Shown here: positions 37,314 through 55,651 of the stretch, in pieces | How the letters are laid out: every line of letters starts with the position of its first letter | Position numbering within the stretch: position 1 is the stretch's first letter | Assembly: GCF_007120195.1 (NCBI RefSeq) | Contig: NZ_SKOG01000011.1 | Location: 1-62,927 of the forward strand | Length of the DNA stretch: 62,927 nucleotides | DNA from: Aquisalimonas sp. | Lineage (GTDB): Bacteria; Pseudomonadota; Gammaproteobacteria; Nitrococcales; Aquisalimonadaceae | Direction of reading: 5' to 3' | Notes under the pieces: model-generated | Told to the model about the DNA's origin: nothing | Seen by the model: only the letters and a program-made list of their open reading frames with translations | Database searches by the model: none | Program-made: the position numbers and the translations under genes

Positions 37314-38366
37314 CTATTTGCGAAAGCGTTCTTCCGCGACGCCATCGGCGACAATGTTGGTCGGTAACTGTGCGGCCTCGGAGCGCTCGAAGATTTCCAT
37401 CAGGGTGTCGTAAATACCCTCGACGTGCTTGATCATCTTGTCCCGGTCATAACCGATGCGCTCATAGGAAACATCGATAATGCCGCCGGCATTGATGACG
37501 TAATCGGGGGCGTAGAGGATGCCCCGTTTCATCAGCTCCTCCCCGTGGCGCATCTCGGCAAGCTGGTTGTTGGCAGACCCAGCGACGACCTTCGCCCGTA
37601 GCTGGGCGAGCGTGCTGTCATTGATGGCCGAGCCCAGGGCGCAGGGGGCAAAGACATCAACATCCTGGCCGTATATCGCATCCCTGTCCACTGCGTTGGC
37701 GCCCAGGTTTTCAACGGCACGCTGGACCTGGTCGTCATAGATGTCCGTCACCCAAAGCTTGGCGCCGGCTTCGTGCAAGAGTTTGGCGAGACGGTAGCCG
37801 ACGTTTCCCATACCCTGAACGGCGACTTTCAGCCCCGTCAGATCATCGCGCCCGAGGCGGTACTTGACGGCCGCGCGCAAGCCGATGAAGGTGCCATAGG
37901 CCGTGGCGGGTGAAGGGTCGCCGCTGCGCACCTGGTCCTCGTCGGTTGGTTTTTCGAGAATCCCGGCCACATAGGAGGTTTCCTGATTCATGACCTTAAT
38001 GTCTTCGACCGAGGTGCCCGAATCCTCGGCGCCGATATAACGGCCGTTCAGGGTGTCGATAAAGCGCCCCATGGCCCGCAGCAAGGCTTCATTCTTGTCG
38101 GCACGGGGGTTGCCGATGATCACCGACTTGCCTCCGCCCAGGGGTAGGTTGGAGATCGCGGATTTGTAGGTCATGCCCCGGGACAGGCGCAGGACGTCCT
38201 GCAAAGCCTCCTCCTCCGTGGGGTAGGGCCACATGCGGCAACCGCCCAGGGAGGGGCCCCGATTGGTGTTGTGGATGGCGATGATGGCCTTGAGGCCCAC
38301 TGAAGGGTCGCAGCAAAACACCACCTGTTCGTGATCGTCGAAATCCCGAGTGGTAAACACGGTCAT
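37314..38366 (-). CDS. Leucine (Glu/Leu/Phe/Val-type) dehydrogenase
   Basis: A 350-residue NAD-dependent deaminase of branched-chain amino acids. Glycine-rich substrate loop [13 protein letters not shown] with the catalytic Lys (about 81-93), Asp in GAEDSGTS, and Rossmann site [17 protein letters not shown] (about 180-196). Length and motifs fit leucine dehydrogenases rather than hexameric glutamate dehydrogenases. ATG 38366 with GAGGAGAAG upstream. Last gene of the minus-strand catabolic operon; gap to lpd 70 bases. Confidence 0.92.
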
Positions 38367-38436
38367 GAGTCTTCTCCTCGGCAATGCTTGCAGAGTCTGA
38401 TGGCATCGACACCAGCGCACCGCAACCTGACCGGAG

Positions 38437-39867
38437 CTATCGATTGACGCCGTGGATTGCCTTCTTGTCCACGGCCAGGGCGGCCTCGTGGGTCACCTCG
38501 GCCAGAGCCGGGTGGGCATGAATAGTCAGCTGAACATCCTCCGCACTGGCACGGAATTCCAGCGCCATCACTGCCTCCGCGATGAGCTCCGAGGCCATCG
38601 GTCCAACGATATGGACGCCCAGTATTTCGTCGCTCTCCTGGTGGGCGAGCATCTTCACCATCCCTGAGGCCTGATTCATTGCCTGGGCGCGGCCATTGGC
38701 TGCAAAGCCGAAACTGCCTGTCTTATAAGGCACGTCCGCGTCCTTGAGCTGTTCTTCGGTCTTGCCAACCCAGGCGACTTCCGGTGCCGTATAGATGATC
38801 GACGGGATGGCATCATGGTTCATCTCGGCGGTTTTGCCGGCGATGAGGTCCGCAACCACAACCCCCTCTTCCGACGCCTTGTGTGCAAGCATCAACCCGC
38901 GCACGCAATCACCGACCGCCCAGACATTCCGGCGCCCGGTGCGATTCTCATCGTCCACCGTGATGAAGCCTCTCGCGTCGATTTCCACGCCGCAGCCATC
39001 TTCCAGCAGACCCTCGGTGTAGGGCCGACGGCCCACGGAGACCAACAGCTTGTCGAAAGTCGCCTCGTGCTTGCCTTGCTTGTCTTCGTAGACAATGCTG
39101 ACGTCATTCCCGCCGGCCTTGGCATCCACCAGCTTCGCACCCAGCTTGATATCAAGGCCTTGATTCTTGAACTGCCGCAGGGCGTCCTTGGCAATCTGCT
39201 GGTCTGCCATGAACAGGAACTGGTCCTGGGCTTCGATCATGGTGACCTCCGAGCCCAGGCGGCTCCAGACACTCCCCATTTCCAGGCCGATCACCCCGGC
39301 GCCAATCACGCCAAGGCGCTTGGGTACCTCATCGAACTCCAGGGCATCCCAGGAATCCACAATGCGCTTGCCATCGAACCTTGCAAACGGCAGTTCCACG
39401 GGCGTGGAGCCGGTGGCGAGGATCACGTGCCGAGCCTCGAGCTGCTCAGCTGTGCCACCGCCCGCAGGCGTAACCTCGACCTTGCCGTCCTTGAGAAGAC
39501 GACCGGTACCCGGAATTCCCTCGATCTTATTCGCCTTGAATAGCTGGGTGATGCCACCGGTGAACTGCTTGGTGATACCGGCCTTGCGCTCGAGCATTGT
39601 CGCCAAATCGAGCCCTGGCTTGCCGACCTTGATGCCATGGTGATCAAACTCGTGCCCGGCCCGGTAATAGAGTTCGGAAGACTCGAGCATCGCTTTCGAG
39701 GGGATACATCCGGCGTTCAGACACGTGCCCCCGAAGGCATGGGACCCATCGCGATTGCTCCAGTTATCCACGCAGGCTGTTTTGAGACCGTTCTGCGCCG
39801 CGCGGATTGCTGCCACATATCCACCGGGACCACCGCCAATGACCACGACGTCGAAGGCCTTGCTCAT
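38437..39867 (-). CDS. lpdA: Dihydrolipoyl dehydrogenase (E3)
   Basis: A 476-residue flavoprotein: FAD site [15 protein letters not shown], redox disulfide [14 protein letters not shown] (about 43-56), NAD site [16 protein letters not shown], and the C-terminal His-Glu in [13 protein letters not shown]. It reoxidises the lipoyl groups of E2. Being between leucine dehydrogenase and methylcrotonyl-CoA carboxylase, and opposite the E1/E2 genes, it probably serves the branched-chain complex. Confidence 0.95.
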
Positions 39868-39935: not shown

Positions 39936-41936
39936 CTAATCCTCCGCGGCAATGGCGAGCAGCACTGAGCCTTCGGAGACCTGATCGCCTGTGCGGTAGT
40001 TGACGTTTTCCACACGCCCGGGGGCGAAAGCGCGGATGGTGTGTTCCATCTTCATGGCCTCGAGGACCATTAGCGGGGCCCCTTCGTCGACATGGTCGCC
40101 TTCTGCGACCAGGACGGCGAGCACGGTGCCCGGCATGGGGGCGGTGAGGCTGCCTTCGCGGATCTCGTCGGCCATGCCGACGGTCAGGGGGTCGTGGATG
40201 ACCAGCTCGCGCGCGTCGTCGCCCACCGAGACGCTCAGGCGGTCGCCGGCCTGCAGCGCCAGGGCGTCCATGTGCACACCGTCGAGTACCCCGCGCAGGC
40301 GGCCATCGGCGTAAAGCGTGCCGTTGGCGCGCACGGTGCCCCCGGGGAGCTCGAGCAGGAAGCAGTCCTTGCGGTAATGGGCGACCACGGTGAGGTCCTG
40401 CTCACCATCGAGAAAATGCAGCACGTGGTGGTTGTCGCTGTTGGGCTGCCAGCCGTCGGTGCTGTGCCACGGTGACCAGGGGTCGGCAGAGCCCTGCGCT
40501 CGCGCGGCGGCGTCCTGATCGACGCTGAGCAGCTCGAAGAGTGCCGCGGCGGCCAGAAGCCGGTCGGAGACCGGCGTAGGCGCGGGGAACAGGGCCTCCC
40601 GGTGGCTGTCGATAAAGCTCGTATCCACACCGCCTGCCATGAAGGCCGGATGCGCGGCGATACGCTCGAGAAAGCGCGTGTTGGTGGTGGTCCCGGCCAC
40701 GGTCCAGGCCTGCAGGGCACGACGCAGCCGCTGCAGCGCCGCCGCGCGGTCCCTGTCCCAGACCACCAGCTTGGCGATCATGGGATCGTAGTGCATCGAG
40801 ATGGTATCGCCTTCCCGAATGCCCGTGTCGATGCGAACGTGGCGGCTCTCGGCGGGCATGCGCAGCCGGCTCACGGTGCCAATCGCCGGCAGAAAGTCCC
40901 GGTCCGGGTCCTCGGCATAGATGCGCGCCTCGAAGGCGTGCCCGGTGAACGTCAACGCCTCCTGGGAGCGAGGCAGCGGGGTGCCCGCGGCGATGTCGAG
41001 CTGCCAGGCCACCAGGTCTTCGCCAGTGATCATCTCGGTGACGGGGTGCTCGACCTGCAGCCGGGTGTTCATCTCCATGAAGAAGAACTCCCCCTGGGCG
41101 TCCATGATGAACTCCACTGTCCCCGCACCGACGTAGCCGATCGCCCGCGCCGCCGCCACCGCCGCTTCGCCCATGGCCTGGCGCTGCGCCTCGCCCAACC
41201 CCGGGGCGGGGGCTTCCTCGATCACCTTCTGGTGCCGGCGCTGCACCGAGCAGTCGCGCTCGAACAAATGCACCACGTTGCCGTGGCGATCGGCAAAGAC
41301 TTGCATCTCCACGTGGCGCGGCTGCAGCAGGTATTTCTCCAGCAGCATGGTGTCATCGCCAAAGCTCGCCTGGGACTCGCGGCGGGCGCTGCGCAGCGCC
41401 TCCTCGAAGTCCTGCGGTGCATCCACGCGCCGCATGCCCTTGCCGCCGCCGCCGGCGGAGGCCTTGATGAGCACCGGGTAGCCGATCTCCTCGGCGACTC
41501 CGGCGAGGTGCTCGAGGCTTTGATCCTCGCCGTGGTAACCGGGCACCAGCGGCACCCCGGCCTCGGCCATGATGGTCTTTGCCGCGCTCTTGGAGCCCAT
41601 GGCGCGGATTGCGGCCGCCGGCGGTCCAATGAAACGAATCCCGGCCTGCTCGCACGCCTCGGCGAAGTCGGCATTCTCGGAGAGAAATCCGTAGCCCGGG
41701 TGGATTGCCTCGGCGCCGCTGCGCCGGGCGACGTCGAGAATCCGTTCGGTGTTCAGATAGCTTTCCCGCGCCGGGGCCGCACCGATGGGCCAAGCCTGAT
41801 CACAGGCGTGGACATGGGCCGCGTCGGCATCCGCCTCGGAGTACACGGCCACGCTACGAACGCCCATGGCGCGGCAAGTGCGCGCGATGCGACAGGCAAT
41901 CTCACCGCGATTGGCGATCAGTACAGTCCCGAGCAT
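39936..41936 (-). CDS. liuD: Methylcrotonyl-CoA carboxylase alpha (biotin) subunit
   Basis: A 666-residue acyl-CoA carboxylase alpha chain: biotin carboxylase (about 1-450) with the ATP loop KASAGGGGKGMRRV, a linker domain, and a C-terminal biotinyl domain with EAMKMEH (biotinyl Lys about 629). Pairing with a carboxyltransferase gene and a methylglutaconyl-CoA hydratase gene identifies the substrate as 3-methylcrotonyl-CoA rather than propionyl-CoA. Six bases separate it from the hydratase stop. Confidence 0.92.
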   Translation of the reverse strand: MLGTVLIANRGEIACRIARTCRAMGVRSVAVYSEADADAAHVHACDQAWPIGAAPARESYLNTERILDVARRSGAEAIHPGYGFLSENADFAEACEQAGIRFIGPPAAAIRAMGSKSAAKTIMAEAGVPLVPGYHGEDQSLEHLAGVAEEIGYPVLIKASAGGGGKGMRRVDAPQDFEEALRSARRESQASFGDDTMLLEKYLLQPRHVEMQVFADRHGNVVHLFERDCSVQRRHQKVIEEAPAPGLGEAQRQAMGEAAVAAARAIGYVGAGTVEFIMDAQGEFFFMEMNTRLQVEHPVTEMITGEDLVAWQLDIAAGTPLPRSQEALTFTGHAFEARIYAEDPDRDFLPAIGTVSRLRMPAESRHVRIDTGIREGDTISMHYDPMIAKLVVWDRDRAAALQRLRRALQAWTVAGTTTNTRFLERIAAHPAFMAGGVDTSFIDSHREALFPAPTPVSDRLLAAAALFELLSVDQDAAARAQGSADPWSPWHSTDGWQPNSDNHHVLHFLDGEQDLTVVAHYRKDCFLLELPGGTVRANGTLYADGRLRGVLDGVHMDALALQAGDRLSVSVGDDARELVIHDPLTVGMADEIREGSLTAPMPGTVLAVLVAEGDHVDEGAPLMVLEAMKMEHTIRAFAPGRVENVNYRTGDQVSEGSVLLAIAAED

Positions 41937-41942
41937 CCGCTG

Positions 41943-42734
41943 TCATTCCTCCAACCAGGCCGGTTTGCGCTTTTCCAAAAAGGCGCTAAGACCCTCCTGG
42001 CCCTCGGCGCCAACCCGCACCGCGGCAATCCGCTGCGCGGTGTCTTGAATCATGGCTCGGTCTATCGGGCCGCGGCCGACCCGCCGGGCGAGATCCTTGG
42101 AGGCCGCCATCGCCTCGGGGCCGTTGCCCCGCATCTGCTTGAGCAGCGTCGCGATGCGCGCGTCCAGCCCTTCGGCCGGCACCTGTTCATGCACCAGGCC
42201 GATGCGCACAGCTTCGCTGGCGTCGAAGCGCTCCGCGGTGACGAAGTACCGCCGTGCCTGTTGCTCGCCCATGGCCTTGACCACATACGGGGAGATGGCC
42301 GCCGGGATCAGGCCCAGCTTCACCTCCGACAGACAGAAGGTGGCCGTGTCCGCCGCGATGGCGATGTCGCAGCACGCGACCAGGCCCACGCCGCCGCCGA
42401 AGGCAGCGCCGTGGACCCGGGCGACGGTCGGCTTGGCCAGGCCGTCGAGGGTTTCCATGAGCTCGGCCAGGGCCAGGGCATCGGCCTCGTTCTGCGCGCG
42501 GGTATACCCCGCCATGCGCTGCATCCAGGTCAGGTCGGCCCCGGCGGAGAAGCTCTTGCCGCGCCCGGCGAGGATCACCACGTGGACCGCCTCGTCGCCT
42601 TCCAGCGCGCGCAGGACACGTGTCAGCTCGCCGATAAAGACATCGTCAAAGGCATTGTGGCGCTCCGGGCGATTGAGGGTCACGGTGGCCACGCCGCCGT
42701 CGCGTTGGGTGACAATCGCCGCTTCGTCGTTCAT
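41943..42734 (-). CDS. liuC: Methylglutaconyl-CoA hydratase (enoyl-CoA hydratase family)
   Basis: A 263-residue crotonase: TVTLNRPERHNAFDD, the oxyanion loop AGRGKSFSAGADLTWMQRM (about 54-72), and VHGAAFGGGVGLVACCDIAI (about 104-123). The ADLTWMQRM segment is typical of the liuC branch. It hydrates 3-methylglutaconyl-CoA to HMG-CoA. The gene lies between the two carboxylase subunits as in the liu operons of Pseudomonas. Confidence 0.9.
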   Translation of the reverse strand: MNDEAAIVTQRDGGVATVTLNRPERHNAFDDVFIGELTRVLRALEGDEAVHVVILAGRGKSFSAGADLTWMQRMAGYTRAQNEADALALAELMETLDGLAKPTVARVHGAAFGGGVGLVACCDIAIAADTATFCLSEVKLGLIPAAISPYVVKAMGEQQARRYFVTAERFDASEAVRIGLVHEQVPAEGLDARIATLLKQMRGNGPEAMAASKDLARRVGRGPIDRAMIQDTAQRIAAVRVGAEGQEGLSAFLEKRKPAWLEE

Positions 42735-42752: not shown

Positions 42753-44360
42753 TTACATGCGGAAAACGCCAAAGCGCGTGGGTTGCGCCGGTGCGTTCTG
42801 GCTCGCGGAAATCCCCAACCCCAGCACCATGCGGGTGTCCGCCGGATCGATGACGCCGTCGTCCCACAGCCGCGCGGTGGCGTAGTAGGGGTGGCCCTGA
42901 TGCTCGTACTGCGCGCGGATGGGCGCCTTGAACGCCTCTTCATCCTCCGTGCTCCAGCGCTCGCCCTTGCGCTCAAACCCGTCCCGGCGGACCTGCGCCA
43001 TGACGTTCGCCGCCTGCTCGCCACCCATCACGGAGATGCGCGCGTTGGGCCACATCCACAGCAACCGCGGCGAGTAGGCCCGGCCGCACATGCCGTAGTT
43101 GCCAGCGCCGAAGCTGCCGCCGATGATCACCGTGAACTTGGGCACCGCCGCGCAGGCCACGGAGGTGACCATCTTGGCGCCGTCCTTGGCGATGCCACCG
43201 GACTCGTACTTGCTGCCGACCATAAAGCCGGTGATGTTCTGCAAAAACACCAGCGGAATGCCGCGTTGGCTGCACAGTTCCACGAAGTGGGCGCCCTTGA
43301 GCGCGGACTCGGAGAACAGCACCCCATTGTTGGCGATGATACCCACGGGGTAGCCGAAGATGTGTGCGAAGCCGCAGATCAGCGTGGTGCCGTAGAGCGC
43401 CTTGAACTCCTCGAACTCCGAGGCGTCGACAATGCGGGCGATGACCTCGCGCACGTCAAAGGGTTTGCGCAGATCGGCGGGCACGGCGCCGTGGAGTTCA
43501 TCGGGGTCGTACAGCGGCTCCCGCGGCTCGCGGAGCTCCAGCGCCACGTGTTTGGTGGTGTTGAGGTGCTCGACGCTCCGGCGCACCAGCCCCAGGGCGT
43601 GGGCGTCGTTGAGGGCGTAGTGGTCGGTCACCCCGGAGACCCGCGAGTGCACGTCGGCGCCACCCAGGTCCTCTGCGGTGACCACCTCACCGGTGGCTGC
43701 TTTTACCAGCGGCGGGCCGGCCAGGAAGATCGTCCCCTGCTCCTTGACGATGATGCTCTCCTCGGCCATCGCCGGCACGTAAGCCCCGCCCGCGGTGCAC
43801 GAACCCATGACCACGGCAATCTGCGGAATGCCGGCAGCCGACATGTGCGCCTGGTTGTAGAAAATGCGCCCAAAATGCTCCTTGTCTGGAAAGACCTTGT
43901 CCTGGTTGGGCAGGTTGGCGCCGCCGGAGTCCACCAGATAAATGCATGCCAGGTGGTTCTCCGCGGCGATTTCCTGGGCGCGCAGATGCTTTTTCACCGT
44001 CTCGGGGTAGTAGGTGCCGCCTTTGACCGTGGCGTCGTTGGCGACGATCATGCACTCGCGCCCGCTCACCCGGCCGATACCGGTGATAATCCCCGCCGAG
44101 GGCACCTCGTCGTCGTACATGCCGGTGGCGGCGAGTTGCGAGAGCTCGAGAAACGGCGAGCCCACGTCCAGGAGCACGCGGATGCGGTCCCGCGGCAGCA
44201 GCTTGCCGCGCTCGGTATGGCGCCGCTGCGCGGTCTCACCTCCACCACGCTTGGCCCGCTCGACGCGGGCGCGCAAATCGGTGACCAGCGCCCCCATGGC
44301 CTCGCGATTGGCCTGAAACTCCTCGGAGCGAGGGTCGACGCGCGATTTCAGCACGCTCAT
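42753..44360 (-). CDS. liuB: Methylcrotonyl-CoA carboxylase beta subunit
   Basis: A 535-residue carboxyltransferase: start [20 protein letters not shown] typical of MCC beta; the CoA-binding region [32 protein letters not shown], and [20 protein letters not shown] (about 456-475). ATG 44360 has GAGGA upstream. First gene of the operon liuB-liuC-liuD-lpdA-leucine dehydrogenase. The usual neighbours isovaleryl-CoA dehydrogenase (liuA), LiuR regulator and HMG-CoA lyase are not here. Confidence 0.93.
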
Positions 44361-44728
44361 GCTATCCGTCCTCGTGCGCTCGCGGTGTGACAGCTCCACC
44401 GGGGCCCCCAGCACGCCGGGCCGCTGTTGCCCGCTGGTTTTTACCCCGGCGCGCAAAAGCGTAGCACAGCCGTCGGAGTTCGCCATGGAACCGGGCGTAG
44501 AACTTACGGATCACCCGGTTTTCACGCGTATCTCCAGCTGCTTGACGCAGGTTGGCATGGGCCGGCGTTTCGATGCTTTTATGGTTTAAGGCAGCATGAA
44601 CCAACACTAACGATTGGCGCGACGCGCGTCGAAAACCCCCGGGAACTGACCTACATTTGGTGTAGCCTCCGTCTTTGTCTAACCGGAGTGTGTATCTCCC
44701 GCAGACCGCGATATCCAGGAAGGCGACC
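44361..44728. promoter_or_regulatory. Divergent control region of the branched-chain operons
   Basis: 368 bases between liuB (minus) and the E1 alpha gene (plus). It contains a 12-bp perfect palindrome CGACGCGCGTCG (44620-44631) and the dyad TACATTTGGTGTA further toward E1 alpha, both reasonable operator shapes. No matched sigma70 promoter stood out and no credible ORF. Confidence 0.45.
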
Positions 44729-45913
44729 ATGACAACACCATCACCCGAAGACGTTCATACGCCGATGCTCACCGATGGGGACGAGTTCCGCATCCCCACG
44801 TACAAGCTCCTGCAGCAGGACGGCACGCTGTACGAAGGGGCGGAAGCACCACACCTGGAGCGGGACAAGGCGCTGCGTATGTACCAGGCGATGGTGTTCA
44901 CCCGGGTGCTCGATGAGCGCATGCTCGCGGCACAGCGCCAGGGCCGCCTGAGCTTCTACATGCAGTGCACCGGCGAGGAGGCCGCGGTCATTGGCAGCGC
45001 CGCCGCGCTGGATGATGCCGACGTGATCATGGCGCAGTACCGGGAGCAGGGGGCGTTGGCGTATCGAGGGTTCACCACCGACGAGTTCATGAACCAACTC
45101 TTCGGCAACGAACTGGATTACGGCAAGGGCCGCCAGATGCCAGTCCATTACGGCTCGACCCGATTAAACTACGTCACCATTTCCTCGCCATTGGCAACCC
45201 AGATTCCCCAGGCCGTTGGCTATGCCTATGGCCAGAAGCTCGCAGGCGACGGCCATTGCACCATCACCTACTTCGGTGAGGGGGCGGCGTCAGAGGGGGA
45301 TTTCCATGCTGCACTCAATATGGCAGCCGTGCACAAGGTTCCAGTGATCTTTCTGTGCCGCAACAATGGCTACGCCATTTCCACGCCGACCATTGAGCAG
45401 TTTGCCGCGGAGGGTGTGGCGCCGCGTGCCTTTGGCTACCGCATGCACGTCATTCGCGTCGACGGCAATGACATCCTGGCCGTCTATGAGGCGACGAGGG
45501 TAGCCCGTCGGATGGCGGTGGAGGACAACCGCCCGGTACTGATCGAGGCGATGACCTACCGTCTTGCGGGGCATTCGTCCTCGGACGATCCGTCCAGCTA
45601 CCGCAGCAAGAAGGAAGAAGAGGCCTGGCGAGAGAAGGACCCTCTCCTGCGCATGCAGCGCTGGCTAACTGACAAGGGGTGGTGGAGCGAGGACGACGAG
45701 AAGCGTCTCCAGGAAAGCATGCGCCGCGAGGTCCTGGACACCATGAAGCGCGCGGAGAAGCGGCCGCCGCCGCCGCTGGAGAGCTTGGTCACCGATGTCT
45801 ACGATGAGGTCACCCCGGCGCTCGCCGAGCAGCTAGACCAGCTCAAGGCCCATATCCGCAAGTATCCGGATGCCTATCCCAAGAGCGCCTCCCAGGTCAC
45901 AGGAGGGGACTGA
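44729..45913 (+). CDS. bkdA1: Branched-chain 2-oxoacid dehydrogenase E1 alpha
   Basis: A 394-residue thiamine-diphosphate subunit. Motifs: [20 protein letters not shown] (about 70-89), the TPP site [20 protein letters not shown] ending in the NN pair [10 protein letters not shown], and the phosphorylation-loop region [16 protein letters not shown], where mammalian E1 is controlled by a kinase. AGGAAGG precedes ATG 44729. The [11 protein letters not shown] loop is strongly conserved and matters given the kinase gene three genes downstream. Confidence 0.94.
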
Positions 45914-45914
45914 T

Positions 45915-46892
45915 ATGGCCAGAATGAACATGTTACAGGCCATCAATCACGCCCTCGATACCGCAATGGCCGCGGACGAGCGGGTGCTGTGCTTCGGTGA
46001 GGATGTTGGCGTCTTCGGGGGGGTATTCCGGGCGACCAGCAATCTCCAGCAAAAATACGGCAAGGCCCGCTGTTTTAATACCCCATTGGTTGAGCAGGGC
46101 ATTATCGGGTTTGCCAATGGACTCGCGGCGCAGGGCTCGATCCCGGTGGCAGAGATCCAGTTCGCTGACTACATCTTCCCCGCCTTCGACCAGATCGTTA
46201 ACGAGTCGGCCAAGTACCGCTATCGCTCGGGTAACCTCTTCAATGTCGGTGGGCTGACCATCCGCGCCCCCTATGGCGGCGGCATTGCCGGAGGGCATTA
46301 CCACTCGCAGTCGCCGGAGGCTTATTTCGCCCATACCCCGGGGCTGAAGGTCGTGGTACCACGCAATGCCCACCAGGCCAAGGGTCTGCTGCTCGGGGCG
46401 ATTCGGGACGACAATCCGGTGGTGTTCTTCGAGCCCAAGCGTCTGTATCGCGCCTCGGTGGGCGATGTGCCGGAGAGCGATTACCAGCTCCCGCTGGGCG
46501 AGGCCGAGGTCGTCAAGGAAGGCAGTGACATCACGCTGGTGGCCTGGGGGGCGCAGATCGAAGTGGTGGAGCAGGCCGTGGAGATGGCCGAGAAGGAACG
46601 CGTATCTTGCGAGGTCATCGACTTGCGGACCATTCTTCCCTGGGATGTGGAGACCGTCGCCAACTCGGTATTGAAGACTGGCCGGCTGCTGGTCTCCCAT
46701 GAAGCGCCCCTGACCGGGGGATTCGGCGCTGAGGTTGCCGCCACCATCCAGGCCCGTTGCTTCCTCTACCTTGAGTCGCCCATCGCACGGGTGACCGGGC
46801 TGGATACGCCCTTTCCCCTTGCGCTTGAGAAGGAGTACATGCCCGATCACCTGAAGGTCTACGAGGCCATCAAAGCCAGCGTCGAATTCTAG
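45915..46892 (+). CDS. bkdA2: Branched-chain 2-oxoacid dehydrogenase E1 beta
   Basis: A 325-residue transketolase-like subunit starting [20 protein letters not shown] with [39 protein letters not shown], and a C-terminal domain with [20 protein letters not shown]. One base separates it from the E1 alpha stop. It completes the alpha2beta2 decarboxylase acting on branched 2-oxoacids. Confidence 0.95.
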
Positions 46893-46908: not shown

Positions 46909-48540
46909 ATGAGCGATTTTATGTTGCCCGATATTGGCGAAGGAATCGTGGAATGCGAGCTGGTCAAGTGGCTGGTCAGCGAAGGGGACGAGATCGAGGA
47001 AGACCAGCCGGTGGCCGAGGTAATGACCGACAAGGCACTGGTGGAGATCCCGGCGCCGTACAAGGGGCGCATCACCCGGCTCTATTATCGCGAGGGCGAG
47101 ATCGCCCGCGTACACGAACCGCTGTTCGCCCTGGTGGCGGACAATGCGGAAGATGAGGTAGGGGCCAAAGCGCATGCCGGAGGCGACGACGAGACGCGAT
47201 CCCGTGAACCGGCAGCCACACCCGCCGCTGCGGCGGCAAGTGCGACCACCGACGCCACCAGTCGCGCCGAGGTGGCGGCTTCATCGGCGGACGAGGCCAG
47301 CGAAGACTTTATCCTGCCGGATATCGGCGAGGGGATTGTCGAGTGCGAAGTGGTGGAATGGCGCGTCGCCGAAGGCGACGAGATCGAGGAAGACCAGCCC
47401 GTGGTCGATGTAATGACCGATAAGGCACTGGTCGAGATCACCGCGCCAAAGGCCGGTCGCGTCACGCAGCGTTACTACCAGCAGGGGGAGAACGCCCGGG
47501 TACATTCGCCGCTGTTTGCTTTCATCCCCAGGGAGCAGGAGGCGAAGCCGGCCTCATCCGGGCCGTCAACCCCGCAACCCCGGGCCTCCGAGCCCGCAGT
47601 GGCGCCGGTGGCGAAAGCCTCCGGGGAAGAGTTCCAACGGCGGGTTCCCGCCACACCGGCCGTCCGCCGCCTGGCGCGCGAACATGGCCTAAGGCTTGCC
47701 GATATCCGCGGTTCCGGAAAGAACGGTCGGGTTCTCAAGGCCGATGTGCTCGCGCACGTCGAGGGAGCCTCCGCGGCCGCTCAGCCGAAGGCGGCACCGC
47801 AACCGGCACCGGCGCCCGCGCGCGAGGGCGCCGGGGAGGTGCGCGTCGAGCCGATCAAGGGCATGCAGGCGGTCATGGCCAAACGCATGGCGCAAGCGGC
47901 CTCCACGATTCCGCACTTTACCTATGGCGATGAAATCGATGTCACCGACCTGCTGGCCCTGCGCGAGCGCCTCAAGCCCGAGGCTGAAGCCCGTGGCACG
48001 CGCGTGACGCTGATGCCGTTTATCATGAAGGCCATGGCACTGGCTGTGGCCGAATACCCCATCCTCAACAGCCGGGTCAACGACGCGGTGACCGAGATCC
48101 ACTATCAGCCGCACTGCAATATCGGCATGGCGGTCGATAGCCGCGTGGGCTTGATTGTGCCCAATATCAAGCAGGTGGAGCGCCGAACCCTGCTCGACAT
48201 CGCTGCGGAAGTGGCGCGCCTGACCACGGCAGCGCGGGACGGCCGGGTGGGACAAGCGGACCTTAAAGACGGTACCATCAGCATCTCGAACATCGGCGCG
48301 CTCGGAGGGACGTACACGTCGCCGATCATTAATGCCCCGGAAGTGGCCATTGTGGCCCTGGGCAAGACGCAGCGCTTGCCGCGTTTTGACGCCCAGGGGC
48401 AAGTGGTGGAGCGAGCGATCATGACCGTAAGCTGGGCAGGGGACCACCGGATCATCGACGGCGGCACGATCGCGCGCTTTTGTAATCGCTGGAAGGGCCT
48501 TCTGGAGTCGCCGCAGTCGATGCTATTGCACCTGGGGTAA
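46909..48540 (+). CDS. bkdB: Branched-chain 2-oxoacid dehydrogenase E2 with two lipoyl domains
   Basis: A 543-residue acyltransferase. Two lipoyl domains (about 3-77 and 133-207) with lipoyl lysines K42 and K172 in the identical motif VMTDKALVEI, joined by an Ala/Thr-rich linker; a peripheral subunit-binding domain (TPAVRRLAREHGLRLADIRG); a linker; and the catalytic domain ending SWAGDHRIIDGGTIARFCNR with the active His and Asp. E2 proteins of this branched-chain type commonly carry only one lipoyl domain, so the tandem pair is notable. SD AGGAG before the ATG. Confidence 0.94.
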   Translation: MSDFMLPDIGEGIVECELVKWLVSEGDEIEEDQPVAEVMTDKALVEIPAPYKGRITRLYYREGEIARVHEPLFALVADNAEDEVGAKAHAGGDDETRSREPAATPAAAAASATTDATSRAEVAASSADEASEDFILPDIGEGIVECEVVEWRVAEGDEIEEDQPVVDVMTDKALVEITAPKAGRVTQRYYQQGENARVHSPLFAFIPREQEAKPASSGPSTPQPRASEPAVAPVAKASGEEFQRRVPATPAVRRLAREHGLRLADIRGSGKNGRVLKADVLAHVEGASAAAQPKAAPQPAPAPAREGAGEVRVEPIKGMQAVMAKRMAQAASTIPHFTYGDEIDVTDLLALRERLKPEAEARGTRVTLMPFIMKAMALAVAEYPILNSRVNDAVTEIHYQPHCNIGMAVDSRVGLIVPNIKQVERRTLLDIAAEVARLTTAARDGRVGQADLKDGTISISNIGALGGTYTSPIINAPEVAIVALGKTQRLPRFDAQGQVVERAIMTVSWAGDHRIIDGGTIARFCNRWKGLLESPQSMLLHLG

Positions 48541-48561: not shown

Positions 48562-50403
48562 ATGGTCCAGGCACCACTGCAGCAGTTCTATATTCCCGAA
48601 GAGCAGTCGATCTATCTGCTCAGTCATGATGATGCCAAGAAGCTCAAGGACTGGGTGGCGCTGTGCACCCAGCAGCTCGAGCAGCTTGGCTACCGCGATA
48701 TCGCGTTGATCGGCAAGGGTGCTTACGGCTTTGTGTTCTCCGGGGTTCTGGTGCGCGAAGCAGGGCAGCAGGTCGAGTATGTCTTCAAGTTCACCCGCAT
48801 CACCTTGCCGCAGCACCTGCAGGATCGCCTTGAGGAAGAGGCCTTCATGCTCCAGCAGATTCATCACCCCCGTGTCCCGCGGCTCATCGCCTACCAGCGG
48901 GTACGCAATCAGTCGCTGCTGATGATGGATCGGGCACCCGGGTACAACCTGGAAGAGGTCTCGCTGCGCGAGGGGCGGCTGGCGCCGCGGCTTGTGGTGC
49001 GTATCGCCACGCAACTGGCGGACATCCTGCGGACCCTGCGCAGCGAGTCAGGTCCGGCAGGGCGACCCATCGTGCATGGCGACATCAAGCCGTCAAACCT
49101 GGTCTTCGATGCCGAGCACGAGAATATTGCGCTCATCGACTGGGGCTCATCCGTGTTCGCGCAGCTCGACGAGAACCATCAGTTCGTCGCACCCAATGTC
49201 ATGGAGCTGATGTCGGACAACCTGCAGCAGACGAATGCGCGCCTTGGGGATGTCTACTTCATCGGCGAGGAGCAGTTAAACGGCGGTCTCTCGTCGCCGC
49301 GCTTTGACGAGCAGGGTACGGCGGGCACCCTGTATGCGCTCGCCTCGGGGCAGTCGTGTCGCTTTGGCTATCGGGCAATTCCCCCCACATCCCTGGGGCT
49401 GCCCAGGGAGTTCGCGCGCATGCTCGCGGGCATGCTTGACCCGGACCCGGCGGTGCGCTGTCGCGCGGGGAATTTTTTCGTGCGCGAGATGCCCCGGATC
49501 GGGCGCACGGTGATGATCGACCTGCCCGAGCCGCCGCCGTCACCGCTGGCGCCGGTATGGATACGCCGCACAGACCGCGAGATGGACACCGTGGTCTACA
49601 GTTCGCGGAAGGCCTTCCTGCGCGAGGAGGGTGCCCCGGAGACACTCAGCGAGGTTAACGATGTCCAGCTCGATCGCTACTACAAGAACTTCATGCAGGG
49701 CATGGGCGAGACGGAGAAGGCCTTTCTCGCCGCGGTCAGCCGGCTGGGCCGCTACCCGGTGGTTGGTGGTCTGGCGGTGCGTTGGGAGGCGGATGGCGTG
49801 TATATCGACACGTCGCTGAATCTCCACGATGCCACGCTGAAGACGGCCTTCGTGACTGCGGTCAACAATATGGTCAATCTGGCACGGGCGATCTATCGCC
49901 AGGGTATCTTCAAGAGCTGCCTGTTCAACGCGCGCGATACGCTGCATATTGATCGCGACAGGCCGGAGGAGCCCTTCGTACCCGAACCGGGAATGCGCCT
50001 GCCCTATGAGGTCAGTGCCGCCCCCGAGCTCGAAGACCGCACCCGGGAGCATTCCTACTTCGAAGATGGTCCTGACCCGGAGGAATTTCTGGTCCTGCCG
50101 GAGCAAATCATTACCTCGCTGGAGGTCCTCAATACCATTCACCACACCGGCATGATTATCTTCGAGGCCTTGCCGAACCACTTGAAGATCCACAGTTACT
50201 ACCGCCTGCTGGATCCGAGCCGGGAGGAGGAGTTTCGCCGTCGGCTGGACGATATCCTTGCAGCCGTCGAGCTCATCGAGGGGCTCGGGGTCTCCGGGTA
50301 CATGAAGATGCCCTACAAGGACACCAAGTACTTCCCCCACATCGAGCGATTGCCGGAGCGCTACTACCCCAAGAATCCGCGCGCTGTGGCATCGGGGCAC
50401 TAG
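48562..50403 (+). CDS. Eukaryotic-like protein kinase with unknown C-terminal domain
   Basis: A 613-residue protein 21 bases behind E2. The kinase domain (about 45-310) has the nucleotide loop GKGAYGFVF (51-59), ATP lysine K76 in YVFKFTR, a glutamate in EEEAFMLQQI, the catalytic loop VHGDIKPSNL (D174) and metal-binding IDWGSS (D193). All catalytic residues are present, with HGD for HRD and DWG for DFG. The last 270 residues (from about 340) are a distinct soluble domain I do not recognise, ending in SGYMKMPYKDTKYFPHIERL. No membrane helix. Being in the 2-oxoacid dehydrogenase operon suggests the complex, or metabolism linked to it, as a target; this is inference. Confidence 0.85.
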   Translation: MVQAPLQQFYIPEEQSIYLLSHDDAKKLKDWVALCTQQLEQLGYRDIALIGKGAYGFVFSGVLVREAGQQVEYVFKFTRITLPQHLQDRLEEEAFMLQQIHHPRVPRLIAYQRVRNQSLLMMDRAPGYNLEEVSLREGRLAPRLVVRIATQLADILRTLRSESGPAGRPIVHGDIKPSNLVFDAEHENIALIDWGSSVFAQLDENHQFVAPNVMELMSDNLQQTNARLGDVYFIGEEQLNGGLSSPRFDEQGTAGTLYALASGQSCRFGYRAIPPTSLGLPREFARMLAGMLDPDPAVRCRAGNFFVREMPRIGRTVMIDLPEPPPSPLAPVWIRRTDREMDTVVYSSRKAFLREEGAPETLSEVNDVQLDRYYKNFMQGMGETEKAFLAAVSRLGRYPVVGGLAVRWEADGVYIDTSLNLHDATLKTAFVTAVNNMVNLARAIYRQGIFKSCLFNARDTLHIDRDRPEEPFVPEPGMRLPYEVSAAPELEDRTREHSYFEDGPDPEEFLVLPEQIITSLEVLNTIHHTGMIIFEALPNHLKIHSYYRLLDPSREEEFRRRLDDILAAVELIEGLGVSGYMKMPYKDTKYFPHIERLPERYYPKNPRAVASGH

Positions 50404-50705: not shown

Positions 50706-51641
50706 ATGGCGGATCGTTATCAGACTCGGCTTGGCTACAAGCAGGAAATGTTTCCTCGTTTGGATCCCGTTGTGCACTCACGCCACCGGGCACGGTGGGA
50801 TGGCCCGCTGGACGAAGAGGCCTTGTCACGCTATGAGCGCGACGGCTTCCTATGGTTTGAGGGTTTTTACTCCCAGGAGCGCCTCGACCCGTTCCAGGAT
50901 GAACTCAAAGAGATGGCCAAGGACACCGAACTGACGCAATCCGAGCAGGTCATCCAGGACCCTGTGTCCGGGGAATTGCGTTCGGTGTTTGCCATGCACG
51001 AGCTTTCCGAGCGTTTTTCCAGGCTGACACGTGACCCGCGCATCCTCGGCATGGTGCACCAGCTGCTTGGCGGTGATGTATACGTCCACCAGTCGCGGAT
51101 CAATGACAAGTTCCAGTTCCAGGGTGCCGGGTTCGAGTGGCATTCCGACTTCGAGACCTGGCATGCCGAAGACGGGATGCCGGCGATGCGTGCGGTCTCC
51201 GCCTCGCTAATGCTCAGCGACAACAACGAGTTCAATGGCCCGGTGATGTTGATCCCAGGCTCGCACCAGTACTTCGTGCCAGCCGTGAAAGAAACGCCAG
51301 ATCAGAACTGGAAGGACTCCCTGAAGAGCCAGCGGCTGGGTGTGCCCGAACGGGAGGACCTGGAATGGCTGGCCAATCGGGGCGGCATTCAGGCACCCAA
51401 AGGCCCCGCGGGCTCTCTTCTGCTGTTCGAGTGCAACACGCTTCACGCCTCCAACAGAAACATGTCGCCCTGGCCCCGTGCGAACCTCTTTTTCGTCTAC
51501 AACAGCATTGATAATCCGCTGGGCGCCCCTTACTCCGCCAACGAGCCGCGCCCTGAGTTTCTCGCCGCGCGGCAGAGTATTACGCCGCTGGACATGCTGG
51601 ATGAGGAAGACTTTCAGCCGTTTGAAATGCCGGGGAAATAG
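50706..51641 (+). CDS. ectD: Ectoine hydroxylase
   Basis: A 311-residue Fe(II)/2-oxoglutarate dioxygenase that turns ectoine into 5-hydroxyectoine. The family signature FEWHSDFETWHAEDGMPAMR spans about 144-163; iron ligands are H146, D148 and H247 (TLHASNRN), matching the known spacing in EctD. AGGAGA precedes the ATG. No ectABC genes are beside it, so the ectoine supply must be encoded elsewhere or taken up. It marks the organism as adapted to salt or osmotic stress. Confidence 0.95.
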   Translation: MADRYQTRLGYKQEMFPRLDPVVHSRHRARWDGPLDEEALSRYERDGFLWFEGFYSQERLDPFQDELKEMAKDTELTQSEQVIQDPVSGELRSVFAMHELSERFSRLTRDPRILGMVHQLLGGDVYVHQSRINDKFQFQGAGFEWHSDFETWHAEDGMPAMRAVSASLMLSDNNEFNGPVMLIPGSHQYFVPAVKETPDQNWKDSLKSQRLGVPEREDLEWLANRGGIQAPKGPAGSLLLFECNTLHASNRNMSPWPRANLFFVYNSIDNPLGAPYSANEPRPEFLAARQSITPLDMLDEEDFQPFEMPGK

Positions 51642-53327: not shown

Positions 53328-53847
53328 AAGTCCTTCTTCTTGGGTTCAGGATGGTGCAGTGAGTAGCCTGCGGACAGGCTAGTGCGGGCGGCGTTGCCTG
53401 GCCATGCTCCTGGTAACGGGGGCCGGGGAGCTAGGGCTTGCTGCAAGGATGCGCCTTGCCGTCTGGGCTCAAATCAGCGCTCGCAACACCCTCGGCCAAA
53501 TGAGCATCGGCCCCTCAGGTCGGTCGGTGCCAGTGGCTGCAAGCGACGTCGCCTGCGAGCCTACCAGGCAGGCACGCAGGTTTCCCCGGTGGCACATGTG
53601 CCGTAACGACACACGACGAACGCATGCAAATGTAACATAAGTCCGGGATTTTAGGCAGGCCAGCGTGTTGGCACCGATCCTGCGTTGGTGAGTACTCGTG
53701 ATGACTGCCGCGGCAGTGGCGAGCCGCGGTTGTGATTGTCCTGAAGAAGATGTTGCGGCGCAGCAATTTCTTTGTTAGCATGTGTTCCATCAGGGTTGGA
53801 GAAGGCCTCCAAGCCCTGCGAAAACTCGCAATTACCGAGGTGTTTTG
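53328..53847. other. Long gap upstream of the phasin gene
   Basis: 520 bases between two divergent genes. Apart from the phasin promoter at 53753-53781 I see no credible ORF. The composition (many short inverted words such as CCGCGGCAGTGGC) suggests room for regulation, but nothing specific can be claimed. Confidence 0.45.
53753..53781 (+). promoter_or_regulatory. Promoter of the phasin gene
   Basis: -35 TTGCGG (53753-53758) and -10 TAGCAT (53776-53781) with a 17-base spacer, 66 bases before the start codon. The spacer includes an A/T-rich run (CAATTTCTTTGT) unlike the GC-rich surroundings. Confidence 0.6.
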
Positions 53848-54303
53848 ATGAAAAACCCAAGTATCAATCAGGTCAACGAGCAGTTTGAGAAGTTCTTTGG
53901 TGGCCCGGCGCGTGCGTTTGCCGAGCTCTCTATCGATCACATGGAATCTCTGGTGAACAACCAGGTCGAGGCCTCCAAGGTCTACACCGATCTGGGCATC
54001 AAGCAGATCCGTAAGGCCCTTGACGTCAAGGCCCCGCAGGACCTGCAGAGCTACCTCCAGAGCCAGCAGGAAGTCGTGAAAGAGTTGACCGAGCGCGTCA
54101 GGAGCGACTCCGAGAAGGTCGTTGCTCTTAACCGCCGGTTTGCCGAGGACGCCCAGAAGTTGACGCAGCAGAAGGTTAAGGCTGCTTCCGAGGAAGCTCA
54201 GCAGCTCACGCAGGAGAACGTGAAGGCGGTCTCTGAGCAGGCCCAGCAGCTCACGCAGGAGAGCACGAAGGCTGCAGCCAAGGCGACCCCCAAGGCTGAG
54301 TAA
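53848..54303 (+). CDS. Phasin family protein (PHA granule-associated)
   Basis: A 151-residue mostly helical protein. The N-terminal part (NEQFEKFFGGPARAFAELSI to about 110) has the phasin_2 pattern with SLVNNQVEASKVYTDLGIKQ. The C-terminal tail repeats an Ala/Gln/Lys unit about three times (AQKLTQQKVKAA, AQQLTQENVKAV, AQQLTQESTKAA), likely a coiled coil, and ends in a basic Ala/Lys stretch. Phasins coat polyhydroxyalkanoate granules. A strong promoter, GAGG ribosome site and strong terminator suggest high expression. Confidence 0.88.
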   Translation: MKNPSINQVNEQFEKFFGGPARAFAELSIDHMESLVNNQVEASKVYTDLGIKQIRKALDVKAPQDLQSYLQSQQEVVKELTERVRSDSEKVVALNRRFAEDAQKLTQQKVKAASEEAQQLTQENVKAVSEQAQQLTQESTKAAAKATPKAE

Positions 54304-54463: not shown

Positions 54464-55651
54464 CTAACGCCCGACGAAGTGCACCCGGCAGGCCGTCACG
54501 TAATCGAGACGTTGGGCGCGTTCAGCAAGCTGCTCGAGTTCGTTGTGAACGGCATCCAGGTCTCTCGCGGGTTGCCACGGCAGATGGATCTCCACCTCGA
54601 GTGCGCCCTCCATGTAGTGGAGATCGAGTCGCTCGATGCGCTCGGCCGCTGCCAGTCCGCCCCACTGCCTTCTCAAATCGCGCTCCACCTCTCGCCGCAA
54701 AGGCAGTTGAACGGTGTCCGCGTCCCATTCCGGGTCTTCGTGCTCGATGTGGACCAGAACATCGTTGATGTCCTGGATGTCCCGCATGAGCCGCTCGTGG
54801 ACTTCTTCGCTGATGCGGTGGCCCTCGGAGACGCTCAGCCGCGGATCGACAATGACGTGCAGATCCGCCAGGGCGTCCTGGCCCATGCGCCGTGTCCTCA
54901 GGCCGTGCACGTTGCGCACGCCTTCAATGTCCCGCACCACTTGCTCGATGGCGGCGATTTCGTCCGGGGTCAGCGCAGTGTCGACCAGCTCCCGCAATGA
55001 TCGCCAGGCGAATTGCAGTCCCACGTGGGCGAGCATGGCGGCCACAATGATGGCGGCGACGGCATCGAGCCATGGCAGACCGACAAGCACGCCGGTGATG
55101 CCGCCGACCACCACGAGTGAGGAGAGGGCATCTGATCGGTGATGCCACGCGTTGACCTCAAGCAGGTTCGAACGGGCTTCGCGTGCCACCGCCTTGGTGT
55201 AGTGATACAAGCCTTCCTTGATGGCGATGGACGCGCAAGCGGCGGTCAGGGCGAGCCACCCGGGGACGAGTAGCGCCTCCGGGTGGATGAGCAGGCGCTG
55301 GACCGCATCATAGATAAAACCGCCCGCAACCAGCAGCAGCATTGCGCCGATGCCCGCCGACGCGACGGTCTCGATGCGGCCATGGCCGTAAGGGTGGTCG
55401 CCATCCGCGCTCTGGCTGCCATAGGCACACGCCACGAGCACCAGCGCGTCGGAGATCAAGTCAGATAACGAGTGGATGCCGTCGACGATCAACGCCTGGG
55501 ATTGTCCGACCACCCCCGCCAGGATCTTTCCCAGGCCCAGGAACAGATTGATCACGCCCCCAATGAGTGTCACGCGCCGTTTTGAATTGGCGGTGTCAGG
55601 GGTGGTTGGATTCTTGTCGATGGGTACCGTCACGACGGCTCTCTTAACCAT
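54464..55651 (-). CDS. Cation diffusion facilitator (CDF) efflux protein
   Basis: A 395-residue transporter with six helices. Metal site motifs are DGIHSLSDLISDALVLVA (helix 2, HxxxD) and HHRSDALSSLVVVGG (helix 5, HxxxD). A cytoplasmic ferredoxin-like domain follows (RTRRMGQDALADLHVIVDPR), then an additional C-terminal domain of about 90 residues (from about 305) that lengthens it compared with FieF (300). It exports Zn, Fe, Mn or Cd. Its ATG shares one base with the stop of the CheB-CheR gene (TGATG), so the two are translationally coupled. Confidence 0.9.
   Translation of the reverse strand: MVKRAVVTVPIDKNPTTPDTANSKRRVTLIGGVINLFLGLGKILAGVVGQSQALIVDGIHSLSDLISDALVLVACAYGSQSADGDHPYGHGRIETVASAGIGAMLLLVAGGFIYDAVQRLLIHPEALLVPGWLALTAACASIAIKEGLYHYTKAVAREARSNLLEVNAWHHRSDALSSLVVVGGITGVLVGLPWLDAVAAIIVAAMLAHVGLQFAWRSLRELVDTALTPDEIAAIEQVVRDIEGVRNVHGLRTRRMGQDALADLHVIVDPRLSVSEGHRISEEVHERLMRDIQDINDVLVHIEHEDPEWDADTVQLPLRREVERDLRRQWGGLAAAERIERLDLHYMEGALEVEIHLPWQPARDLDAVHNELEQLAERAQRLDYVTACRVHFVGR

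Follow-up and report, generated by a model that had tools for sequence, protein, structure and literature searches.

A Hanks-type protein kinase that accompanies mitochondrial-type branched-chain 2-oxoacid dehydrogenases in gammaproteobacteria

What might a eukaryotic-like protein kinase do when it is encoded within an operon for a branched-chain 2-oxoacid dehydrogenase complex (BCKDH)? To our knowledge, dedicated kinases of 2-oxoacid dehydrogenase complexes have been thought of as a mitochondrial invention. The question is raised by a stretch of DNA of 62,927 nucleotides from Aquisalimonas sp., referred to as the window. In the window, the genes of E1α, E1β, E2 and the kinase, termed KIN, stand in a row on the plus strand, and catabolic genes lie divergently on the minus strand:

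37317..38369 (-): Glu/Leu/Phe/Val-type amino-acid dehydrogenase, leucine/valine dehydrogenase-like (PF02812, PF00208)
38440..39867 (-): E3, dihydrolipoyl dehydrogenase (TIGR01350, 518.6 bits against a cut-off of 408.8)
39939..41936 (-): biotin carboxylase with biotinyl domain, of methylcrotonyl-CoA carboxylase α type by context
41943..42734 (-): enoyl-CoA hydratase (nearest NCBIfam family gamma-carboxygeranoyl-CoA hydratase, at a score under the cut-off)
42753..44486 (-): carboxyltransferase (PF01039), judged by context to be of methylcrotonyl-CoA carboxylase β type; transcribed away from the bkd operon
44729..45913 (+): E1α of a mitochondrial-type branched-chain 2-oxoacid dehydrogenase (ORF 44675-45913, probable start 44729; PF00676, E 3.5e-100)
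45915..46892 (+): E1β (probable start 45915; Pfam; closest solved chain human BCKDH E1β, 457 bits)
46909..48540 (+): E2 with two lipoyl domains and an E3-binding domain (Pfam)
48562..50403 (+): KIN, two-domain Hanks-type protein kinase of 613 aa (ORF, Pfam, predicted fold, alignments)

This neighbourhood is a branched-chain amino-acid locus, and the divergent E3 and leucine-degradation-type genes count in favour of KIN acting as a switch of the BCKDH. Further along, about 300 bases past KIN, lies a gene for ectoine hydroxylase (50706-51641, plus strand; TIGR02408, above cut-off), homologues of which, 59-60% identical, also come after KIN in loci L052 and L081. Downstream, a small ORF resembling a phasin (53782-54303, plus strand) and a 974-aa ORF with the look of a CheB-CheR-PAS fusion (55651-58575, minus strand) were recognised by eye.

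The kinase and its C-terminal domain

The first-pass annotation had placed a kinase gene 21 bases after E2 and had credited its product with the catalytic residues K76, D174 and D193. Both points hold: the ATG of KIN lies exactly 21 bases past the stop codon of E2, the ORF (48562-50403, plus strand) is intact, and the three residues are present and invariant in the aligned rows. Residues 44-213 match the Pfam family Pkinase (PF00069, 62.9 bits against a cut-off of 31.7). The parts of the protein are encoded as follows:

48646..49518 (+): kinase domain, residues 29-319 (predicted-fold match Z 20, Pfam, residue invariance)
48712-48738 (+): P-loop
48787-48789 (+): codon of K76
49072-49101 (+): catalytic loop VHGDIKPSNL
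49138-49149 (+): DWGS
49231..49317 (+): end of the activation segment and start of helix F, residues 224-252, TNARLGDVYFIGEEQLNGGLSSPRFDEQG (conservation)
49702..49959 (+): C-terminal repeat 1, residues 381-466 (hhalign, secondary structure)
50083..50325 (+): C-terminal repeat 2, residues 508-588 (hhalign, secondary structure)

The motif set consists of GKGAYG, K76, E93, HGDIKPSN and DWGS, and it deviates from the standard motifs in having HGD instead of HRD and DWG instead of DFG. Conservation was assessed on 132 aligned rows including the window (120 distinct, identity down to 52%), in which K76, D174, D193, G51, G53, E93, H172, G173, K176, N179, W194, G195 and D249 are invariant. As some KIN genes had been entered twice, the residue statistics were repeated on the 33 non-redundant rows left after dropping rows at least 80% identical, and the same residues are invariant there. 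K76, E93, D174, K176, N179, D193 and D249, by which a Hanks-type kinase was recognised, are thus all in place, the roles of E93 and D249 having been assigned by eye. The model of KIN (pLDDT 68) is predicted to adopt a bilobal kinase fold; with VIA-align its best match is phosphorylase kinase (1phk, Z 20.4 over 245 residues at rmsd 3.0), PknB is matched at Z 20.0, and the structural matches listed are protein kinases (phosphorylase kinase, AMPK, PknB). Combined, the intact gene, the predicted fold and the invariant residues suggest that KIN is a catalytically competent Ser/Thr kinase.

On the 33 non-redundant rows, residues 224-266, which comprise the P+1 loop and helix F, show a mean agreement of 0.90 with 23 of 43 positions invariant; the corresponding means are 0.87 for the DWG stretch, 0.83 for the catalytic loop, 0.69 for the kinase domain (44-318) and 0.68 for the C-terminal domain. 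A segment so much better conserved than the kinase domain as a whole would suit one fixed protein substrate. Three known families were considered and rejected. KIN scores far below the cut-offs for defence kinases (MAD6, 46.2 bits against 460; PglW, 42 against 990); no GHKL or BCKDK/PDK domain occurs among its Pfam matches up to E 1, and the fold predicted is that of protein kinases; the AceK family is absent from the matches of KIN, taken up to E 1 in Pfam and up to E 0.1 in NCBIfam. With a threshold of E 0.001, Pkinase is matched three times in the genome of the window, KIN being one of these matches; the third (L003, G000:C183:10336-10587) is a partial domain with an internal stop codon and possibly a broken kinase gene.

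No Pfam family was found in the C-terminal part of the window's KIN. Prediction of its structure, a step proposed in the first-pass annotation, yielded a domain of no recognised fold. When repeat 1 was compared with repeat 2 by hhalign, a probability of 78 and an E of 1.7e-5 were obtained over 78 columns that align collinearly and without gaps (the control pairs gave 0.2 and 1.1), and by this comparison the domain is an internal duplication made of two diverged helix-strand-strand-helix-strand units. A profile of the domain gave a single match in PDB sequences, at E 1.3; its model reached at best Z 4.6 at rmsd 9.9 with VIA-align and E 0.059 with Foldseek. As the pLDDT of this model is only 67, the missing fold match means little. 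A YbjN/CesT-like chaperone fold found no support in the fold searches and was dropped. On the C-terminus of one homologue, a DUF4417 match (19.6 bits, below the cut-off of 28.9) and a match to a PHROG of unknown function (E 0.0075) were treated as chance.

Partnership of KIN with a mitochondrial-type E1α

Relatives of KIN were sought in one genome from each of 84,980 species. The best 80 of 247 confirmed relatives, 78-86% identical and by their titles mostly from Halomonas and kin and from Marinobacter, were examined. E2 lies upstream of KIN on the same strand in all 80, within 60 bp in 52 and within 1 kb in 78, and the widest gaps are 2.1 kb (L040) and 7.6 kb (L025). The order E1α, E1β, E2, KIN is found in 75 of these 80 loci; the other five are L025, with only E2 in the stretch, and L007, L018, L044 and L057, which are short contigs or contig ends. 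In L092 (G399), E2 and KIN are parted by a 292-aa ORF that resembles, by eye, a 23S rRNA methyltransferase. Plasmid-borne spread found no support, as no match to KIN at E 1e-20 occurs in 72,556 plasmid records.

Does the kinase follow one kind of BCKDH? Across the phylum, 398 genomes were drawn, the counts for E1α and for KIN being taken to come from one draw, as their genome handles agree. E1α's with an identity of at least 59% were found in 29 of them, and exactly these 29 genomes have KIN. A wide gap in identity lies beneath, the next E1α's being at most 44% identical. KIN is present in 44 of 44 genomes with a KIN-type E1α and in none of 36 with the next-nearest E1α (39-44% identity), and six further genomes of the latter kind are also KIN-negative. 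Of 369 genomes drawn from the whole class (KIN at E 1e-20 or better, E1α at E 1e-100 or better), six gave KIN and five of these six gave E1α; in the sixth, G413, KIN is matched over 87 C-terminal residues where a contig ends, and a bkd of the KIN type is missing, which counts against a dedicated switch. About 120 order-mates had no full E1α; KIN was found in one (G866) of the 80 tested. G866 gave no E1α at 1e-65; a piece of E1α opens contig C240, where it is cut by the contig end and followed by an E1β at 74%. Presence varies inside five families, always as both or neither: 3 both and 11 neither in f1, 1 and 22 in f4, 6 and 1 among those listed in f174, 1 and 5 in f270, and 3 and 3 in f274. 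In the genus of the window, three genomes carry KIN and E1α and two carry neither, which suggests that the block was gained or lost there as a whole. No genome with one complete gene of the pair and no trace of the other was met among those surveyed. The partnership of KIN with the mitochondrial-type BCKDH group is well supported.

Distances are less telling. Between KIN and E1α, over 40 of the 44 genomes, the Spearman correlation is 0.28, a value reached by none of 1000 permutations; the nearest neighbour is identical in 32 of 40, and the correlation is 0.69 among 12 unlinked genomes. The correlation of 0.28 is weak, and it was counted against a dedicated switch, not as support.

The partner itself is close to the human enzyme. 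Among solved chains, the closest to the window's E1α is human BCKDH E1α, with 406 bits against 229 for Thermus; for E1β the scores are 457 (human) and 361 (Thermus). P. putida BCKDH (bkdA1-A2-B) matches the window complex in reaction type and in its kinds of subunit, yet its E1α and E1β score far lower than the human chains (212 and 315 bits). E2 is less telling, with 244 bits over 251 residues for the bovine/human-type BCKDH E2 core and 287 bits over 333 residues for a bacterial PDH E2 (2ihw). A tree of E1α was built from 74 rows: 47 from KIN genomes (the window, 7 from named genomes and 39 others), 26 from KIN-less genomes (5 of the 16 low-identity E1α's, L105-L120, and 21 of 42 at 38-44% identity, chosen for spread) and human BCKDHA. 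The 47 KIN-associated rows form one group (99/96) with human BCKDHA as its sister (100/97), and all 26 KIN-less rows fall outside. Human BCKDHA shares 51.6-53.8% identity with the eight KIN rows closest to it and at most 42.4% with KIN-less rows. Long branches are placed with little certainty, that of human BCKDHA is long (0.94), and the sample comprised one phylum plus human. The claim therefore goes no further than nearness within that phylum: the KIN-type E1α is nearer to human BCKDHA than any other sampled E1α of its phylum. The window and its genus-mates are placed beside Litchfieldella and Marinobacter sequences, a position that would fit lateral transfer among halophiles.

Linkage is not universal. 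The 44 pairs divide into 29 linked and 15 unlinked ones, of which nine are on different contigs and six on the same contig, 0.29 to 2.0 Mb apart; the flanks of the 15 unlinked KIN genes, read for about 8 kb in either direction and for less where some contigs end, contain no bkd genes. A kinase gene found mostly away from bkd genes was the case that the first-pass annotation had held to speak against its proposal. What was seen is the reverse, E2 preceding KIN in every one of the best 80 relatives and KIN standing beside bkd in the 29 linked pairs. Since KIN is kept far from bkd in 15 of 44 genomes, linkage alone cannot explain the pairing, and as neither gene was seen lost in the unlinked clades, the pattern is one of co-retention and not of joint loss. 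Fourteen of the 15 unlinked KIN genes belong to families f197 and f202; the other is that of G720, inside an otherwise linked group. Among L181-L184 and L186-L190, from two families, most share neighbours downstream of KIN, by eye a large HExxH-like protein and a hybrid histidine kinase. Such shared neighbours point to probably one old separation in f197 and f202, with G720 as a second.

LiuR is predicted to control bkd in Shewanella (PMC3223726). With a LiuR-like motif constructed for this analysis, a palindrome was found before bkd in 7 of 8 f197 promoters and in 4 of 4 promoters from three f202 genomes and G720. None was seen before the 15 unlinked KIN genes, and none was found before the window's own bkd operon. 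The palindrome being missing before unlinked KIN, there is no sign of co-regulation when the genes are apart, which counts against a dedicated switch.

Candidate target in E1α and rival explanations

The loop of E1α that the first-pass annotation had singled out as a possible phosphorylation target is present in the window's E1α:

45572..45607 (+): E1α loop, with Ser codons at 45575 and 45605 (alignment with human BCKDHA)

It aligns without gaps to the human loop with its phospho-Ser, and the Ser codons 45575 and 45605 align with the two Ser that are phosphosites 1 and 2 of human BCKDHA. By analogy with mitochondria and from this gap-free alignment, E1α may be the substrate of KIN, which would phosphorylate the first Ser of HSSSDD (codon 45575) in the active-site loop. 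Phosphorylation at the human BCKDHA site inhibits BCKDH, and because of this known effect, inhibition would be the outcome: the complex would be turned down at times when the cell has to save branched-chain keto acids or amino acids. As for the duplicated C-terminal domain, it would attach KIN to the complex, sense a metabolite, or both. The phospho-acceptor Ser is also found in a KIN-less E1α (L146); it must be conserved for other reasons too, and the loop counts as a candidate, not as evidence. No phosphatase gene was noticed among the recurrent neighbours of KIN, read by eye. On balance, we favour the view that KIN is a dedicated kinase of the accompanying mitochondrial-type BCKDH that most likely phosphorylates the E1α loop and turns the complex down.

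A kinase dedicated to the complex might instead act on the E2 lipoyl/linker region, on E1β or on E3, or might activate or assemble the complex rather than switch E1α off. Co-occurrence and operon position suit any subunit equally, and the E1α loop also occurs outside KIN genomes; E1α is favoured by analogy only. The E2 ORF is 410-416 aa long in L196-L198 against 521-566 aa in L092-L094-type loci; judged from ORF lengths alone, E2 probably does not always have the second lipoyl domain, which is thus unlikely to be a fixed target. We regard this alternative as rather unlikely, though it deserves serious attention. A looser tie, with KIN as a signalling kinase of pleiotropic action, comparable to PrkC or StkP, that happens to travel with the operon and has its targets elsewhere, would agree with the 15 of 44 genomes in which KIN is apart from bkd, and many bacterial Hanks kinases have several targets. 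The targets of such kinases are described as pleiotropic (PMC4601284). Against it, KIN goes with one E1α group wherever the genes are complete, unlinked ones included, and neither PASTA nor another sensor family is among its Pfam matches, which makes it improbable.

The chemistry itself could be of another kind, KIN phosphorylating a small molecule of the pathway as APH-like enzymes do, and not a protein. The APH family (PF01636) also matches KIN above its cut-off, at 33.4 bits, and HGD and DWG are reminiscent of aminoglycoside and choline kinases. However, the score for Pkinase is higher (62.9 bits), the catalytic loop (HGDIKPSN) has the Lys typical of protein kinases without variation, and the fold matches listed are protein kinases; we give this explanation very little weight. 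Least credible of all is a scaffold or pseudokinase. The large C-terminal domain is as conserved as the kinase domain (means of 0.68 and 0.69), but every catalytic residue of KIN is invariant, and on that ground the moonlighting scaffold entertained in the first-pass annotation is disfavoured. Its other suggestion, an independently evolved control, fared better: co-occurrence, the E1α tree and the absence of a GHKL-type match speak for it, and phosphotransfer, substrate and site are putative.

Relation to known systems and meaning

KIN is best read as a Hanks-type kinase that would be the counterpart of the mitochondrial BCKDH kinase and is not homologous to it. BCKDK is an enzyme of the GHKL/histidine-kinase fold that acts on the E1α loop of mitochondrial BCKDH. 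KIN would share with it the presumed job and the presumed target, the loop of a closely related E1α, whereas it is Hanks-type with no GHKL match, bacterial, mostly operon-encoded and equipped with a different extra domain. With PknB, PrkC and StkP it shares the kinase fold and motifs, and it differs from them in the HGD and DWG motifs, in having no PASTA match, in its tie to one complex and in the duplicated C-terminal domain. AceK is an isocitrate dehydrogenase kinase/phosphatase encoded beside metabolic genes, with two domains and a size similar to that of KIN. In contrast to AceK, KIN has no match to that family, a different domain order, and no sign of a phosphatase. AceK of E. coli is described as a bacterial kinase dedicated to one metabolic enzyme (PMC4999502).

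In the open-access literature searched, no report of a bacterial BCKDH kinase was found. The genes SO_2339:SO_2341 are bkd genes. They are labelled 'TCA cycle and related genes' in the legend of a mutant fitness/expression figure for lactate and acetate medium, and in that paper the four mentions of 'kinase' all concern histidine kinases (PMC3219624). A review of Hanks kinases makes no mention of branched-chain, pyruvate dehydrogenase, 2-oxo, keto acid or Shewanella (PMC6213207).

Tentatively, we raise the possibility that the mitochondrial BCKDH lineage gained a covalent off-switch of its own on two or more occasions, from unrelated folds, as the GHKL BCKDK of eukaryotes and as the Hanks-type KIN of marine and halophilic gammaproteobacteria, both acting on the same E1α serine; the duplicated C-terminal domain may then represent a new fold by which 2-oxoacid dehydrogenase complexes are docked to or a signal is sensed. 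Independently of the kinase, E1α and E1β of the window (44675-46892) are much nearer to human mitochondrial BCKDH than to that of P. putida, which bears on the origin of the mitochondrial BCKDH. If KIN is the dedicated kinase of its complex, it would provide a clean case of convergent regulation and a second AceK-like example in bacteria, together with a sharp prediction: one kinase, one complex, one loop serine. It would also offer a simple genetic system for the control of branched-chain amino-acid and branched-chain fatty-acid metabolism.
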